Source of the DNA: Jiangella alba
GTDB taxonomy: Bacteria > Actinomycetota > Actinomycetes > Jiangellales > Jiangellaceae
DNA length: 64,000 bases
Assembly (NCBI RefSeq): GCF_900106035.1
Contig: NZ_FNUC01000004.1
Span: 1,550,001 to 1,614,000 of the forward strand
Direction of reading: 5' to 3'
In this document: piece after piece, positions 56,380 to 63,222 of the stretch
How the letters are laid out: each line of letters opens with the position of its first letter
How positions within the stretch are numbered: the first letter of the stretch is position 1
Made by a program: the position numbers and the translations under genes
The notes under the pieces: generated by a model
Told to the model about the DNA's origin: nothing
What the model saw: only the letters and a program-made list of their open reading frames with translations
Databases searched by the model: none

Positions 56380-57732
56380 TCAGCCGGCCGACGTCGGCGG
56401 CTCGGCCGACTGCGGCCGGGTCCGCTGCTGGGGCATCGCCGGTGTGCCGGCGGCGCTCATGCGGACGGTGTTGCGGCCGGCGTTCTTGGCCGCGTACAGC
56501 GCGGTGTCGGCGGCCAGCACCAGCTCGTCCAGGGTGGTGATGCCGGCGGCCGGGAAGACGGTGCCGCCGACCGACGCGGTGATGGTGACGCTCACGGCGT
56601 CGTCGCGCCCGGGCGGCTCGAGCACCACCGCCTGGATGCGGCGGCGGATGCGTTCGGCCACCCGCAGGACGTTGCGTTCGTCGCCGACGTCGGGCAGCGC
56701 GACCACGAACTCCTCGCCGCCCCACCGGCCGCAGGCGTCCTCGTCGCGCACCTCGGCGAGCAGTTCCGTGGCCACGGAGCGCAGCACGCGGTCGCCGAAC
56801 GGGTGGCCGTAGGTGTCGTTGATCGCCTTGAAGTGGTCGAGGTCCACGATGAGCAGGCCCATGGTGCGGCCGCGGCTACGGGCCTGGGCGAGCGCCTGGT
56901 CCGCGTACTCGTGCCACCACTTGGCCGTGGTGAGGCCGGTCTTGGCGTCGAACCGGGACGCCTGCTGGTACTGGTGCACCAGGAGGCCGCGGTGCAGGGC
57001 GACCATCGCGACGACGACGCCGGGCAGTACGAACGGGTTGTTCACGACGACGGCGGCGGTGACGAGGCCGAGGCCGAGGGCGCCGGCCTCGAGGACCTGC
57101 TCGCCGATGTTGGAGAAGAGGTCCCGCGCCCGGGCGGTCGGGCTGGACAGCGCGATGGCGACCATGACCAGGCCGAGGTTGATGGCCCACCGGAGAACGC
57201 CGGCGGCCGCGATGACCCCGAACTCGGCGAGTCCTTCCAGGCTCGCCGCCCCTGGAGCTCCGGGGTAGCTCGCCATCCCGACGGCGAGCACGACGACGGC
57301 CGCCTGCGTGCCGCAGAGCACGGTGGCGCAGGAGAAGATCCACCGATGCGGCAGGCCGGGGCGCGCGTGCGGCTTGATGCGCCACCACGCGAGGGAGTAC
57401 GTCAGGACCACCATCAGCGAGGCCAGCAGCGGCGGCAGCACGATGACGGCGGCGAAGCTCCAGACGGACTTCGTGTCGATGTAGCCCGAGGTGGGGCTCC
57501 GCCAGTACTCGCGCTTGCGCTCGATGTGCCGGGTCAGCTCGATCGCCAGCCACGAGCAGCCCAGCAGCACGCCGAACCGGACGAGGTCGGAACCTCCGAC
57601 GGGCACGAGCACGGCCGTCGCGGAACTCACCACGATCGATGCGGCCACCACGACGAGGATCAGGATCACCAGTGGCCTGGGCAGTTGCCACAGTGACCCG
57701 TTGCGGCACCAGTTCCAGAGTCGTCGAGTCAA
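56380..57732 (-). CDS. Membrane-bound diguanylate cyclase (GGDEF)
   Basis: A protein of about 450 residues. Six to seven membrane helices fill the first 250 residues (PLVILILVVVAASIVVSSAT, FAAVIVLPPLLASLMVVLTY, TQAAVVVLAVGMASY). The cyclase domain follows: MGLLIVDLDHFKAINDTYGH, active-site GGEEF and the intact inhibitory I-site RDED five residues before it, then LVLAADTALYAAKNAGRN. It should make c-di-GMP with product inhibition. The start is uncertain: TTG 57730-57732 is a candidate, and the frame stays open upstream through the tandem array to 58215. Confidence 0.85.
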   Translation of the reverse strand: MTRRLWNWCRNGSLWQLPRPLVILILVVVAASIVVSSATAVLVPVGGSDLVRFGVLLGCSWLAIELTRHIERKREYWRSPTSGYIDTKSVWSFAAVIVLPPLLASLMVVLTYSLAWWRIKPHARPGLPHRWIFSCATVLCGTQAAVVVLAVGMASYPGAPGAASLEGLAEFGVIAAAGVLRWAINLGLVMVAIALSSPTARARDLFSNIGEQVLEAGALGLGLVTAAVVVNNPFVLPGVVVAMVALHRGLLVHQYQQASRFDAKTGLTTAKWWHEYADQALAQARSRGRTMGLLIVDLDHFKAINDTYGHPFGDRVLRSVATELLAEVRDEDACGRWGGEEFVVALPDVGDERNVLRVAERIRRRIQAVVLEPPGRDDAVSVTITASVGGTVFPAAGITTLDELVLAADTALYAAKNAGRNTVRMSAAGTPAMPQQRTRPQSAEPPTSAG

Positions 57733-57802: not shown

Positions 57803-57835
57803 TGTCCGCATCTGCCCCTGGGGTAGATGCGGACA
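57803..57835. promoter_or_regulatory. 33-bp near-perfect palindrome upstream of mini-ORF array
   Basis: Arms 57803-57818 and 57820-57835 are complementary at 15 of 16 positions (the exception is a G-T pair), around one central base. The ends read TGTCCGCATCT and AGATGCGGACA. It lies 70 bp before the diguanylate cyclase start and 68 bp before the first mini-ORF. It could be an operator for both directions or a hairpin at the 5' end of the array transcript. TTGCCG (57771) with TATCCG (57794) is a weak rightward promoter just upstream. Confidence 0.6.
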
Positions 57836-57903
57836 ATAGGAACGTAAGTGGGACGATCCGGTTGACCTCTTGCGGGATGCAGAAAGGAAGGGAGGGCGGT
57901 CCG

Positions 57904-57927
57904 ATGCGCGACACGACTTGGAGCTGA
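57904..57927 (+). CDS. Mini-ORF 1 (MRDTTWS)
   Basis: Seven codons plus TGA, with GGAGGG at 57891-57896 seven bases before the ATG. Codons for Thr4 and Thr5 are ACG and ACT; Arg2 is CGC. It is the most divergent copy at DNA level but encodes the same peptide. Whether it is translated is unproven. Confidence 0.45.
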   Translation: MRDTTWS

Positions 57928-57980
57928 ACCAGACCAGACCGCGACGTGACCAGTGAGCGAGTGAGGGGAGGGCCGGGCTG

Positions 57981-58004
57981 ATGCGTGACACGACCTGGAG
58001 CTGA
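57981..58004 (+). CDS. Mini-ORF 2 (MRDTTWS)
   Basis: Seven codons plus TGA, with GGAGGG at 57967-57972 eight bases before the ATG. Arg2 is CGT, Thr4 ACG and Thr5 ACC. Identical in DNA to mini-ORF 4, 149 bp downstream. Confidence 0.45.
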   Translation: MRDTTWS

Positions 58005-58052
58005 ACCGGACCTGATCCCGGACGAACGAGGGTGTGGAGGGAGGACCGTCCG

Positions 58053-58076
58053 ATGCGCGACACCACCTGGAGCTGA
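58053..58076 (+). CDS. Mini-ORF 3 (MRDTTWS)
   Basis: Seven codons plus TGA, with GGAGGGAGGA at 58036-58045 seven bases before the ATG. Arg2 is CGC, Thr4 and Thr5 ACC. Identical in DNA to mini-ORF 5. Confidence 0.45.
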   Translation: MRDTTWS

Positions 58077-58129
58077 ACCGGACCGGACCACCGCGTGACG
58101 AGCGAGCGAGTGAGGGGAGGGCCGGGCTG

Positions 58130-58153
58130 ATGCGTGACACGACCTGGAGCTGA
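58130..58153 (+). CDS. Mini-ORF 4 (MRDTTWS)
   Basis: Seven codons plus TGA, with GGAGGG at 58116-58121 eight bases before the ATG. It is an exact copy of mini-ORF 2, and the spacer after it is also an exact copy, showing a recent 149-bp duplication. Confidence 0.45.
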   Translation: MRDTTWS

Positions 58154-58201
58154 ACCGGACCTGATCCCGGACGAACGAGGGTGTGGAGGGAGGACCGTCC
58201 G

Positions 58202-58225
58202 ATGCGCGACACCACCTGGAGCTGA
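58202..58225 (+). CDS. Mini-ORF 5 (MRDTTWS)
   Basis: Seven codons plus TGA, with GGAGGGAGGA at 58185-58194 seven bases before the ATG. The last base of its stop codon is the first base of the hairpin at 58225-58248, so the array ends here abruptly. Confidence 0.45.
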   Translation: MRDTTWS

Positions 58226-58248
58226 CACCGTCCCCCGTCTGACGGTGT
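58225..58248 (+). terminator. Hairpin closing the mini-ORF array
   Basis: ACACCGTC and GACGGTGT form a perfect 8-bp stem around the 8-base loop CCCCGTCT, immediately after the last mini-ORF. No U tract follows. Its position suggests a terminator for a rightward array transcript; it also lies 29 bp beyond the stop of the leftward MFS gene and may serve that gene too. Confidence 0.5.
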
Positions 58249-58276: not shown

Positions 58277-59521
58277 TCATCGGCTGGGTCCTGACGCGCG
58301 GCGCGGCGTGCTGGCTGGTCCGAGACGGGACCACCGCACGGCGGCGGCGGTTGCGGCGAGCGTGCCCAGCACCGCCGCGACGGCGATCACGGTCGATGGC
58401 GCGACGAGCTGAGCGAAGATCCCTGCTGCGACGATGGCGACGCCCTGCGCTGCGCGCAGCGCTGCGATGGCGAGGCCGACGGCCTGGCCGCGCAGGTGCG
58501 GCGGCGTCGCCTCGACGTATGCGGCCTGCGTGATCATGTCGTGCGCGGAGAACAGCCCGCTCAGCGTCCACAGCACCACCGCGGCGGCCAGGCCCGGCGC
58601 CCACGGGGTGGGGATGAGGATCGCGCTGCTCGCGACCGCGAGCGGGCCCATCAGCACGAGCCGGCGGTCGACCCGCACCCGTCGCAGGACGAGCATCCCC
58701 AGGAACGTGCCCACCGGATTGGCCGCGAGCAGCCAGCCGACCGCGGCGGAGCCGGCGCCGAGTTCGGTCGCGTACGGGACGGCGAGCCCTTCCGGCACGA
58801 CGTAGAAGCCCGAACAGCAGGCGATGGCGAGCAATGTGAGCAGCCGCGGGTCGCGCGCCACGCCATGCCAGCCGGCCCGGATGGTCGCCCATTGCCCGGG
58901 AGCGGCGCTGCGCGAACCCGCGGTGAGTGCGGCGGGACGATGCGGGCTGAGGCCGTGGGCGATCAGCAGCGCCGACAGAGCGAACGTGGCCGCGTTGATG
59001 AGCAGCGCCGTGTGCACGCCGAACTCGGCCACCAGCGCCGCCGCGGCGCCGAACCCGACGACGAGTGAGGCCTGGTAGGTCATCGAGATGATCCCCAGCC
59101 CCAGCATCAGCCGGTCGCCGCTCAGGATGTCCGGCAGCGCCGCCTGTCGCGCGGCCGAGAACGGCGCCGTCAGCAACTGCACCACGGCCAGCAGGCACAC
59201 CTGCCCGGCCAGCGGGACGCCGGGGATCGCCATCGCCGCCACCAGCGCCGCCCGCGCGAGGTCGGCGGCCACCATGACGTCGCGGCGCGGGAACCGGTCG
59301 GCCAGTCCGGCCAGGGTCGCGCCGCCGACGAGGTCCGGGAGGTACGTCAGCGCGTAGGTGAGCGCGGCGAGTCCGGCCGACTCCGTCCGGTCGAACACCA
59401 GCAGGGTCAGCGCCACGCGCGCGAGCTGGTCGCCGATGACGGAGAGCAGGTGCGCCAGCCACAGCCAGCGGAACTCCGCCACGCCCAGGACGTGGCGGTA
59501 GGTGGCCGGCGACGTAGACAT
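58277..59521 (-). CDS. MFS transporter (MFS_3/enterobactin-exporter-like)
   Basis: A 414-residue MFS protein with 12 helices. EFRWLWLAHLLSVIGDQLAR and VALTLLVFDRTESAGLAALT open the first half; GGATLAGLADRFPRRDVMVA is motif A, and SAARQAALPDILSGDRLMLG is the typical MFS_3 loop. In the second half, YATELGAGSAAVGWLLAANP and ATPPHLRGQAVGLAIAALRA are recognisable. Members export macrolides, siderophores or peptides. ATG 59519-59521 has only a weak ribosome site; the frame is open to 59674. It lies between the mini-ORF array and the acyltransferase/E1 operon. Confidence 0.82.
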   Translation of the reverse strand: MSTSPATYRHVLGVAEFRWLWLAHLLSVIGDQLARVALTLLVFDRTESAGLAALTYALTYLPDLVGGATLAGLADRFPRRDVMVAADLARAALVAAMAIPGVPLAGQVCLLAVVQLLTAPFSAARQAALPDILSGDRLMLGLGIISMTYQASLVVGFGAAAALVAEFGVHTALLINAATFALSALLIAHGLSPHRPAALTAGSRSAAPGQWATIRAGWHGVARDPRLLTLLAIACCSGFYVVPEGLAVPYATELGAGSAAVGWLLAANPVGTFLGMLVLRRVRVDRRLVLMGPLAVASSAILIPTPWAPGLAAAVVLWTLSGLFSAHDMITQAAYVEATPPHLRGQAVGLAIAALRAAQGVAIVAAGIFAQLVAPSTVIAVAAVLGTLAATAAAVRWSRLGPASTPRRASGPSR

Positions 59522-60382: not shown

Positions 60383-61093
60383 ATGACCACCAGCCCCCTC
60401 AAATCCGCCGCCCGCGAGTTGTACGGGTTCCGTGACGACGTCTCGGGCATGACGATGCGCTTCTATACGCCGGCCCAGGGGTTCGGCCACTGGACCACCT
60501 ACGCCGACGGCGCCCGCGCCAGTTACCAGCGCTACCGGGTCGAGCAGGCCCTGACGCTGCCCGCGGTCACCGACGAGTCCGAGGCGCCGGTGTTCGCCAT
60601 CACGTCCGACGACAGCGGGAAGGTCTGGGCCGGCTGGTACGTCAACGGCCCGCTGCGCAGCATGCGCGACGCGTACGCGCCCCGCGAGTTCGCCAGCGAA
60701 CCGGTGTCGGCCTCGCTGGTCAGCGACTGGATCGAGGCCGCTCTGCCCGAGGGCGTCATCGAGCTCAAGGGCGCCTGGGTCGATCCCGCGTCGGAGCACA
60801 AGTCGGCGCTGGCCGACCTCACGTCGCGGGCGTTCCTGCACGCCATGCGGGTGCTCGGCGTCCGTTACGCGTACTGCTCGGCGGCCGAGCACGCGGCGTC
60901 GCGCTGGTTCAACTCCGGCGCCGAGGAGTTGCCCGGCATCATCCCGGCCCGCTACCCCGACGACCGCTACCGCACGACGATGCTGACGTGGGACGGCGCG
61001 ACGGCCATCGAGCGCGCCACCGACGAGCAGCGCCGGCTGTTCGAGAACGAATGCCGCACTGCGACGGGCACGGAGGTTCCGGGCGCACGATGA
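60383..61093 (+). CDS. Acyltransferase-like protein (FeeM/LuxI-type fold suspected)
   Basis: A protein of about 236 residues starting MTTSPLKSAARELYGFRDDV at ATG 60383; GTG 60362 or GTG 60374 are alternatives. VFAITSDDSGKVWAGWYVNG, LPEGVIELKGAWVDPASEHK, LADLTSRAFLHAMRVLGVRY and YCSAAEHAASRWFNSGAEEL follow the order of strands and helices in GNAT-related N-acyl amino-acid/homoserine-lactone synthases (the I-E-L-K-G segment corresponds to the E-L-x-R-x strand). This is a pattern-level judgement, not a firm assignment. It overlaps the E1-like gene by 4 bp. Confidence 0.45.
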   Translation: MTTSPLKSAARELYGFRDDVSGMTMRFYTPAQGFGHWTTYADGARASYQRYRVEQALTLPAVTDESEAPVFAITSDDSGKVWAGWYVNGPLRSMRDAYAPREFASEPVSASLVSDWIEAALPEGVIELKGAWVDPASEHKSALADLTSRAFLHAMRVLGVRYAYCSAAEHAASRWFNSGAEELPGIIPARYPDDRYRTTMLTWDGATAIERATDEQRRLFENECRTATGTEVPGAR

Positions 61094-63222
61094 CCGATGC
61101 CGTGAACGGGGCCGGCTGGCGCCCGGAGCTGGTGACCGACCCCGAACGACTGGCCGCCCTGCGTGCCGACCCCGCGGTGCAGGTGGCCGACACCCTCGGG
61201 CAGCAGCAGCGTGACCTCGCCCGGTTGCTCTCCGCGGCACCGCCGGAGGTCGCCGGCGAGCCGGCGCGGTGGTTCTACTACCCCTGGCGGCGCACCCTGG
61301 TGCAGCTGCTCGGGCCCGAGGCCTTCCACCGGCTGCGCACCGACCGCAACCGCAACAAGATCACCGCCGAGGAGCAGCAGCGGCTGCGCCGGCTCTCCGT
61401 CGGCGTCGCCGGCCTCAGCGTCGGCCATGCCATCGCGCACACGCTGGCGCTCGAGGGCAGCTGCGGTCACATCCGGCTGGCCGACTTCGACGAGATCGAG
61501 CTGTCCAACCTCAACCGCATCCCGGGGACGGTCTTCGACCTCGGCGTGAACAAGGCGGTCGTGGTGGCCCGCCGCATCGCCGAGCTGGACCCGTACATCG
61601 AGGTGAGCATCGAACCCGCCGGCCTCACGCTGGAGACCGTCGACCGCTTCCTCGACGGCCTGGACGTCGTCGTCGAGGAGTGCGACTCCTTCGACGTGAA
61701 GCTGGCCCTGCGCGACGGCGCGCGGCGGCACCGGCTGCCGCTCGTCATGGAGACCAGCGACCGCGGCCTGCTCGACGTCGAGCGCTACGACCTCGAGCCG
61801 GACCGGCCGCTGTTCCACGGCCTGCTCGGCGACGCCCGCCCGGCCGACCTCATGGGCCTGTCGACGCACGACAAGGTCCCGTACGTGCTGCGGGTGCTCG
61901 AGCCGGGCGAGCTGTCGGCGTCGATGGCCGCGTCGATGACCGAGGTCGACGAGACCCTGAACACCTGGCCGCAGCTGGGCGGCGACATCACGCTGGGCGC
62001 CGCCACGGTGGCCGCCGCCGTCCGCAAGCTCGGCCTGGGCGCGCCCGTGCGGTCGGGACGGGTCCGGGTCGACCTCGACGCCGTGCTGTCCGAGCTGGCC
62101 GACCCGCCGCCGGCCGCCGACGCCGACTTCGGCGCCGACCTCGTCGTCGACCCCGAGCCCGCGCCGACCCTGCCGCGCGCCACCGTCGTGCACGCCGCGC
62201 GGCTGGCGCCGTCGGGCGGCAACACCCAGCCCTGGGCGTTCACGCTCAGCTCCGAAGGGTTGGCCATCGACCTCGACCGCACGCAGACGTCCACGCTGGA
62301 CGTCGCCTTCCGCGGCAGCCACGTCGCCATCGGGGCGGCGCTGTTCAACGCCCGGGTCGCGGCCGCCCGGCACGGGCTGCTCGGCGCCGTCGAGATCCCC
62401 GCCGACGGCGACCACGTGGCGACCCTGCGGTTCGGCAGTGGCACCGACCCGGAGCTGGCCGGCCTGTACGACGCCATGCTGCGGCGGGTCTCGAACCGGC
62501 ACTTCAACGGGCCCGCGCCGCTGCCGCCGGAGACGACGGACGTGCTGCGGGCGGCCGCCGCGGCCGAGGACGGCGACGTCCACCTCGTCACCGGGCGCGA
62601 GCCGCTGCGCCAGCTGGCCGAGCTGCTGGGCGAGTCCGACCGGCTGCGCTACCTCACCGAGCATCTGCACCGGGAGATGATGCGCGAGCTGCGCTGGCCC
62701 GGCGTCGACGCGCTCGACTGGGGCATCGACGTGCGGACGCTCGAGCTGGACCGCTCCGACCTCGCGAAACTGGGCGTGGCGCGGCGGTCCGACGTCATGG
62801 CGGTGCTCGCCGAGCAGGACCTCGGCCGGGCGCTCGGCGAGTCCACCCGCGATCGCGTCGAGGCCGCCGCCGGGCTGGCGGTCGTCTCTGTCGCGGGGTC
62901 GTCGCCGGCCGACTACGTGCGCGGAGGCCAGGCCGTCGAGCGGGTCTGGATCGAGGCCGAGCGGCTCGGTCTCGCGGTCCACCCGATGTCGCCGGTGTTC
63001 ATCTTCGGCGTCGACGACGCCGATTTCGAGGAACTGTCGCCGCGGTACTCCGACCGGCTTCGTCGCTTGCGCGACGATTTCGCCGGGATCGTCGGACTTG
63101 GGCGAAGGCACGTCGCACTGGTGATGCGGATCGGATACGCTCCTAGCGTCAGCGTCCGGAGCCGCCGCCTGTCTGCCGACCGCACCGTTCGGGACGCCCT
63201 GGAGGCAGGGAGAAATCTATGA
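61090..63222 (+). CDS. E1-like ThiF domain fused to nitroreductase (Rv1355c/MoeY type)
   Basis: A 710-residue protein matching the length and architecture of M. tuberculosis Rv1355c. Residues about 75-330 form a ThiF/E1 adenylation domain: RTDRNRNKITAEEQQRLRRL, nucleotide loop GVAGLSVGHAIAHTLALEGS, and the Mg/ATP segment DFDEIELSNLNRIPG. The usual zinc-binding Cys pairs are not seen. Residues about 365-700 form a nitroreductase domain: HAARLAPSGGNTQPWAFTLS, MLRRVSNRHFNGPAPLP and FIFGVDDADFEELSPRYSDR. It probably adenylates a carboxylate and reduces a linked group, but no substrate is known. ATG 61090 overlaps the previous stop. Confidence 0.8.
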   Translation: MTDAVNGAGWRPELVTDPERLAALRADPAVQVADTLGQQQRDLARLLSAAPPEVAGEPARWFYYPWRRTLVQLLGPEAFHRLRTDRNRNKITAEEQQRLRRLSVGVAGLSVGHAIAHTLALEGSCGHIRLADFDEIELSNLNRIPGTVFDLGVNKAVVVARRIAELDPYIEVSIEPAGLTLETVDRFLDGLDVVVEECDSFDVKLALRDGARRHRLPLVMETSDRGLLDVERYDLEPDRPLFHGLLGDARPADLMGLSTHDKVPYVLRVLEPGELSASMAASMTEVDETLNTWPQLGGDITLGAATVAAAVRKLGLGAPVRSGRVRVDLDAVLSELADPPPAADADFGADLVVDPEPAPTLPRATVVHAARLAPSGGNTQPWAFTLSSEGLAIDLDRTQTSTLDVAFRGSHVAIGAALFNARVAAARHGLLGAVEIPADGDHVATLRFGSGTDPELAGLYDAMLRRVSNRHFNGPAPLPPETTDVLRAAAAAEDGDVHLVTGREPLRQLAELLGESDRLRYLTEHLHREMMRELRWPGVDALDWGIDVRTLELDRSDLAKLGVARRSDVMAVLAEQDLGRALGESTRDRVEAAAGLAVVSVAGSSPADYVRGGQAVERVWIEAERLGLAVHPMSPVFIFGVDDADFEELSPRYSDRLRRLRDDFAGIVGLGRRHVALVMRIGYAPSVSVRSRRLSADRTVRDALEAGRNL

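Follow-up and report, generated by a model that had tools for sequence, protein, structure and literature searches.

The main result of this analysis is the link between an array of seven-codon genes and a divergent GGDEF gene, which encodes a membrane diguanylate cyclase (DGC), in a 64,000-nucleotide stretch of Jiangella alba DNA, referred to here as the window. Sequence comparison establishes the reading frame of the array, its presence throughout the genus, its pairing with a DGC subtype, the way in which peptide type and the membrane half of that enzyme segregate together, the recurrence of the arrangement in other families and the intactness of the cyclase. The encoded peptide is probably a partner of the DGC or a signal that the DGC senses, and we are confident of the more general proposition that the two are functional partners. 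The fuller reading, in which an exported micropeptide would be the cognate ligand of the DGC membrane sensor and would set c-di-GMP, is one that we favour with moderate confidence, and for its secretion component, that the micropeptide is a secreted signal, we see the chances as even.

The array occupies positions 57904-58225 of the + strand (Table 1). As the original prediction stated, it consists of five cassettes, each made of a Shine-Dalgarno sequence (SD), an ATG, six codons and a TGA, and all five encode MRDTTWS, with the consensus ATG CGN GAC ACN ACN TGG AGC TGA and ORF-to-ORF spacings of 77/72/77/72. A GGAGG precedes every ORF, its final base lying 8-9 nt ahead of the ATG. The predicted pattern of change is also found, in that base differences within the ORFs are confined to third positions (CGC/CGT, ACG/ACC and ACT/ACC) and the spacers are more variable. 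This five-copy arrangement is far beyond chance. The exact ORF pattern has no match elsewhere in the same genome, the five array copies being all, and of ~85,000 species genomes scanned with it, Jiangella muralis alone had two or more copies. A tandem-pair pattern matched 13 of 394 genomes of the class, all from one family, and a looser MRxxxWx pair pattern matched a single genome among 396 of the phylum, namely the window's own. An Rfam covariance-model search of the array returned nothing up to E=1. Outside any array, a solitary MRDFTWI-stop match (L047, G000:C4:932346-932369) may be due to chance or may be a lone relative.

Table 1. Features of the array and its surroundings, in window positions
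Feature	Position	Strand	Remarks
Dyad TGTCCGCATCTGCCCC/GGGGTAGATGCGGACA, candidate operator or hairpin	57803..57835		overlaps GACAAT box; z -7.4
GACAAT box, candidate -10 element of array	57832..57837	+	28 upstream regions compared; putative function
Micropeptide ORF copy 1, MRDTTWS, TGA stop	57904..57927	+	SD GGAGG 57891-57895
Micropeptide ORF copy 2, MRDTTWS	57981..58004	+	SD GGAGG 57967-57971
Micropeptide ORF copy 3, MRDTTWS	58053..58076	+	SD GGAGG 58040-58044
Micropeptide ORF copy 4, MRDTTWS	58130..58153	+	SD GGAGG 58116-58120
Micropeptide ORF copy 5, MRDTTWS	58202..58225	+	SD GGAGG 58189-58193
Inverted repeat, possible terminator	58226..58247	+	abuts last stop; no better than shuffled sequence
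Membrane DGC, proposed cognate receptor or partner	56380..57732	-	divergent from array; GGDEF domain
MFS transporter, candidate exporter	58277..59521	-	convergent with array; 59674 is an alternative for its uncertain start codon
236-aa protein	60383..61093	+	precedes the ThiF-nitroreductase fusion
Rv1355c-family ThiF-nitroreductase fusion	61084..63222	+	

Comparison of the copies indicates that the array is almost certainly a translated peptide gene. First of all, the 25 array loci contain 116 seven-codon copies, every one of them with an SD and a TGA stop. Second, 91 pairs of neighbouring copies contain 77 synonymous and 4 non-synonymous codon differences, with start ATG/GTG swaps scored as synonymous. 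The difference rates are 0.032, 0.016 and 0.080 at codon positions 1, 2 and 3, but rise to 0.47 ahead of the SD and 0.43 past the stop, and the proposed comparison of ORFs with spacers (~43-47% different) thus bears the coding reading out. Third, Ser5 of the related peptide MRGNSWD is encoded by either AGC or TCC, depending on the copy, for which translation in that frame is the sole explanation. The original prediction had cautioned that the complementary strand might account for the synonymous pattern. The antisense strand of the window array is indeed mostly open, because the DNA is GC-rich, but the serine AGC/TCC switches seen in sister arrays rule out coding on that strand as the source of the pattern. 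A long minus-strand ORF was likewise rejected, as half of the copy-to-copy steps are not a multiple of 3.

It had also been suggested that the array is a ribosome-titrating RNA, in which initiation on short ORFs would sequester ribosomes or cause peptidyl-tRNA drop-off and the peptide itself would be irrelevant. In its favour, the arrays line up between two and thirteen strong SDs, each with a short ORF, and short ORFs can be translated reiteratively. However, strong purifying selection acts on amino-acid identity, and conservation extends beyond the SD layout to the amino-acid sequence itself; furthermore, the species-specific peptides co-vary with the DGC, and other families use a single copy. 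We thus regard titration of ribosomes or tRNA as extremely unlikely.

Most other arrays of the family are also preceded by the same or nearly the same GACAAT box, and in several cases a dyad overlaps it. The dyad of the window is 16 bp long and near-perfect, folds into a strong hairpin and is a possible operator for the divergent DGC and array promoters; its length varies in relatives, with TGTC...GACAAT in most copies of Jiangella locus 1. Neither a consensus sigma-70 promoter nor an intrinsic terminator was found at the array. The hairpin that was predicted to close the array does exist as an inverted repeat at the last stop, but its folding is unremarkable against shuffles (z -0.68), it has no T run, and conservation of the repeat was looked for and not found. 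A role of the array as a leader or translation sensor, another of the meanings offered earlier, is not supported because nothing is conserved downstream on the same strand.

The DGC, whose start lies ~170 bp from the array, combines an N-terminal multi-helix membrane domain of ~250 residues, a weak relative of MASE9, with a GGDEF domain. RxxD-5-GGEEF is kept in all 30 Jiangellaceae DGCs, so that both the active GG[DE]EF site and the inhibitory RxxD site are intact. AlphaFold2 models predict a compact multi-helix membrane domain, for which a fold search of the PDB gave nothing significant, the best plausible match being the S component of an ECF transporter (E 0.94, TM 0.48/0.63). On the other side of the array, the MFS gene is present in most Jiangellaceae cassettes; a PDB sequence search with the MFS protein gave no match. 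Further along, the gene pair for the ThiF-nitroreductase fusion and the 236-aa protein, which has no Pfam or NCBIfam match, is kept in 12 of 12 Jiangella loci, and models of anti-phage systems had no match.

These neighbours bear on the suggestion that the peptide is the precursor of a modified product (microcin C-like, biarylitide-like or another RiPP), with the DGC as regulator and the MFS as exporter or immunity protein. The microcin C cluster includes an MFS exporter, and some biarylitide precursors have Arg at position 2. The combination of a heptapeptide, an SD, an fMet-Arg start and an MFS neighbour recalls MccA, as does a seven-codon ORF translated directly at its final length, and a gene with a ThiF domain is nearby. 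MccA, a product of 7 aa with a strong SD, needs its C-terminal Asn (PMC6495379), whereas here only the MRDNNWN and MRDSTWN types end in Asn. Furthermore, the sole ThiF-domain neighbour is the Rv1355c-family fusion, which is absent from the paralogous cassettes and from those of other genera; an MccB-type adenylyltransferase was not found, no MccB homologue is tied to the arrays, and an array paired with a DGC takes the place of the single mccA. The microcin C hypothesis was thus rejected, since the ThiF gene is not tied to the arrays and the C-terminal Asn is not conserved. Biarylitides resemble the present case in their minute precursor gene (bytA, five residues), missed by gene finders. They rely, however, on a dedicated cross-linking P450 (PMC13417212). 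Pfam found neither a P450 nor another modifying enzyme among the tested neighbours (locus 1 and three other cassettes), length and motif differ, and a biarylitide or P450 RiPP was likewise set aside. A modified-peptide precursor has thus gained no positive evidence and no linked modifying enzyme, and we consider it very unlikely.

The search of related genomes for SD-spaced ORFs at this locus, as proposed, found arrays of 2-13 copies in 12 of 12 Jiangella genomes, lying between the divergent DGC, itself found in all 12, and the MFS gene, with a peptide that varies by species. MRDTTWS arrays have 5 copies in G000, 13 in G001 (with an R variant and two GTG starts among them) and 6 in G008 (including G and N variants). 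The other Jiangella arrays encode MRDNTWS (G004, 5 copies), MRDNNWN (G002, 8 copies), MRDVNWT/MRDSNWT (G005, 4 copies), MRDSNWT/MRDTNWNG/MRDTNWSE (G003, 5 copies) and MRDNTWT (G006, G007, G009, G010 and G011, 4-8 copies). An extra ORF that begins MCDG or VCDD lies just 5' of copy 1 in G007, G011, G009 and G010 (L035/L034/L033/L036) and shares its frame with the first MRDNTWT in G007 and G010. An array adjoins this DGC in six Jiangellaceae outside Jiangella too; the peptides in other genera of the family are MRDNTWT, MRDSTWN, MRDNNWT, MRDNKWSR, MRDAHWES/MRDAHWNW, MRDNHWTP and MRDTNWVLRDTNWSW. The last is a fused double-peptide array (L101, G016 C29), followed by an MFS gene, and upstream of that MFS lies another DGC of this type. 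Genomes G012-G015 of the same family, two of them incomplete assemblies, carry neither DGC nor array.

Second DGC-MFS cassettes with arrays of their own encode MRGNSWD in six Jiangella genomes and MRANSWD in other genera, and in these paralogous cassettes the MFS gene is convergent as well. The DGC tree and the MFS tree each split the MR[GA]NSWD cassettes from most of the MRD type, with MRDNKWSR placed differently in the two trees. One degenerate cassette, at a DGC start (L104, G019 C37), retains a remnant array (VRENCW / MRENCWML...), with no adjoining MFS detected, and a gene of the AI-2E transporter family lies past the MFS of an MRGNSWD cassette (L108 7219-8694, the second Jiangella cassette).

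At the level of sequence, peptide type co-varies with the membrane sensor domain of the DGC and not with the flanks. Among the 66 pairs formed by 12 Jiangella species, the membrane halves (DGC residues 1-250) are 84.8% identical where the peptide is the same and 64.8% where it differs, whereas flank identity is similar in the two classes (80.6 and 79.7), and for the lactonase, the upstream MFS2, the MFS and ThiF the classes lie within ~2 points of each other. In the pair G000 and G010, which have different peptides, the lactonase and MFS2 are 96-97% identical and the DGC membrane half 59%; the dip in DNA identity extends here into part of the MFS. Between G004 and G009, on the other hand, identity dips exactly across the DGC and the array and is back to 0.96 at the MFS end. 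Peptide distance correlates with membrane-half distance (Mantel r=0.80, 0/20,000 permutations), although the permutations leave physical linkage in and adjacency (~170 bp) could yield part of the co-segregation without contact. The correlation is unchanged with the flanks removed and is 0.60 (p 1e-4) after removal of the GGDEF half. In windows of 60 residues it is maximal at DGC residues 61-120 (r=0.87), as against 0.33-0.42 for the MFS windows closest to the array.

Such a pattern could in principle arise if array and DGC were functionally separate neighbours that recombine together, since the two lie side by side in divergent orientation and linkage is not something that a Mantel test can take out. 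The MFS end, however, is about equally near on the other side of the array and co-segregates more weakly than the DGC, and the MFS contributes nothing to the Mantel fit once the DGC is accounted for. Furthermore, the pairing persists over paralogues, genera and families with different surroundings. An artefact of linkage thus appears decidedly unlikely.

Profile searches with the membrane half found related DGCs in other families, and directly upstream of these, in divergent orientation, lie tiny SD-ORFs, typically of 6-9 codons and ending in Trp-x-stop. They encode MRHTSWS (two copies), MSSTQWG, MLRGVTWI, VSSGVQWV, MSSGIQWV, MAAGIQWV, MRGVSWI, MRGISWI, MASVVQWG, MAKKIVHWL, MVGNGVTWT, MLRGVTWT and MRTTNWT; [MV]RNREY, which has no Trp, also occurs there in two copies, adjoining an MFS gene, and in family f41 an MFS lies beside a two-copy sORF locus. 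A refined profile matched 115 of the 121 genomes of one large family. Of 60 additional upstream regions drawn from the list of that profile, 33 contain an SD-ORF (6-14 codons) with a penultimate Trp; dinucleotide shuffles give 0.75 and the opposite strand 1. Over 90 regions, Trp stands at position -2 in 66 SD-sORFs and at any other of the last six positions at most twice, while the last residue varies by locus (S, T, D, N, G, R, I or V). Single-copy versions occur beside DGCs in other families, and multiple copies are seen again beside paralogous large-family DGCs (MSTTNWT, and MRTTNWT twice); about 40% of the DGC relatives in this large family lack a recognizable micropeptide. The shortest Trp-x-stop peptides seen, MYAEWG and MTIDWD, precede a paralogous DGC (L246, G777 C274).

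MASE9 (PF20972), a membrane sensor domain, is matched by 9 of 25 relatives of the DGC sensor domain at E up to 0.1 (best 1.5e-8), whereas the membrane half of the Jiangella DGC itself has no Pfam match at E<=0.001. Of the MASE9 loci that the Pfam model retrieved in the class, 0 of 16 have a Trp-x-stop micropeptide; the pairing thus belongs to a subfamily, and the MASE9 family at large was ruled out as the partner. The loci in other families further indicate that the minimal unit is micropeptide plus DGC, and that the tandem array with an MFS is the form taken in Jiangellaceae. The MFS is not linked in the main other family (f15), and an exporter is thus not universal.

The suggestion of a multi-copy peptide signal is supported and extended by the coding constraint in 116 copies, the per-species variants and the co-segregation with a membrane DGC, a gene to which the original prediction had not tied the array. 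In the mechanism we propose, the array would be a multi-copy gene for fMet-Arg-Asp-Thr-Thr-Trp-Ser, the dedicated partner of the divergent membrane DGC. Transcription would run from GACAAT, and translation would yield the heptapeptide directly in its final length, with many copies per transcript and at high output, from ORFs short enough for repeated re-initiation; seven-codon ORFs are translated reiteratively in vitro, with ~71 rounds per ribosome for mccA (PMC6495379). The peptide would then be exported, probably via the adjacent MFS where one exists, and the multi-helix membrane domain of the DGC would bind it. Binding may set c-di-GMP output, with the sign of the effect equally conjectural, and the outcome would be a self-specific, pherotype-like signal that may serve density sensing.

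The micropeptide might instead stay inside the cell, as an integral subunit of the DGC membrane domain or a regulator of it, with copy number setting dosage and no cell-to-cell signalling. It carries no export signal, the MFS is unlinked in the large family f15, divergent promoters permit coordinated expression, and the pairing evidence would fit equally well. However, the system is polymorphic between species and replaced in an allele-like manner, which is seen more typically where a signal meets its receptor or self is recognized, and the MFS is kept with the array in Jiangellaceae paralogues and beside the two-copy locus of f41. We consider an intracellular cofactor rather unlikely.

For an exported ligand, the closest working analogy is ComX-ComP of the Bacillus ComQXPA system, in which a short peptide with an essential Trp near its C terminus is paired with a multi-helix receptor of variable N-terminal domain in linked polymorphic pherotypes (PMC4008528). 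ComX, however, is cut from a precursor of 52-73 aa and prenylated by ComQ, and ComP is a histidine kinase, whereas here the peptide is translated at its final size from many copies, no prenyltransferase is linked and the output is a diguanylate cyclase. The module is thus not a member of the ComX-ComP family, as processing enzyme, modification and output domain all differ. In agr (AgrD-AgrC), peptide type and membrane sensor domain likewise vary together in groups while the flanking genes are conserved, but that system uses a processed thiolactone (AgrD), a kinase (AgrC) and the required AgrB, and all three are absent from the cassette here. The cassette genes are the DGC and the MFS only, with no maturation enzyme of the ComQ or AgrB type and no sensor histidine kinase.

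To judge from a search of the open literature, the micropeptide-DGC module is undescribed; that search, outside of which subscription papers and preprints lay, found nothing with any of six peptide strings, MASE9 together with GGDEF, or Jiangella together with diguanylate cyclase. For most membrane-anchored diguanylate cyclases we know of no natural signal. It may be, and we put this neither above nor below its opposite, that unannotated Trp-x-stop micropeptides of 6-9 residues are widespread signals of a subfamily of actinobacterial membrane DGCs, which in Jiangellaceae have become arrays with diversified pherotypes. If the pairing holds, a genetically encoded ligand would be named for one DGC sensor family, and functional genes of seven codons, invisible to annotation, could be found through their covariation with a receptor. 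Actinobacteria would also gain a peptide language that feeds c-di-GMP.
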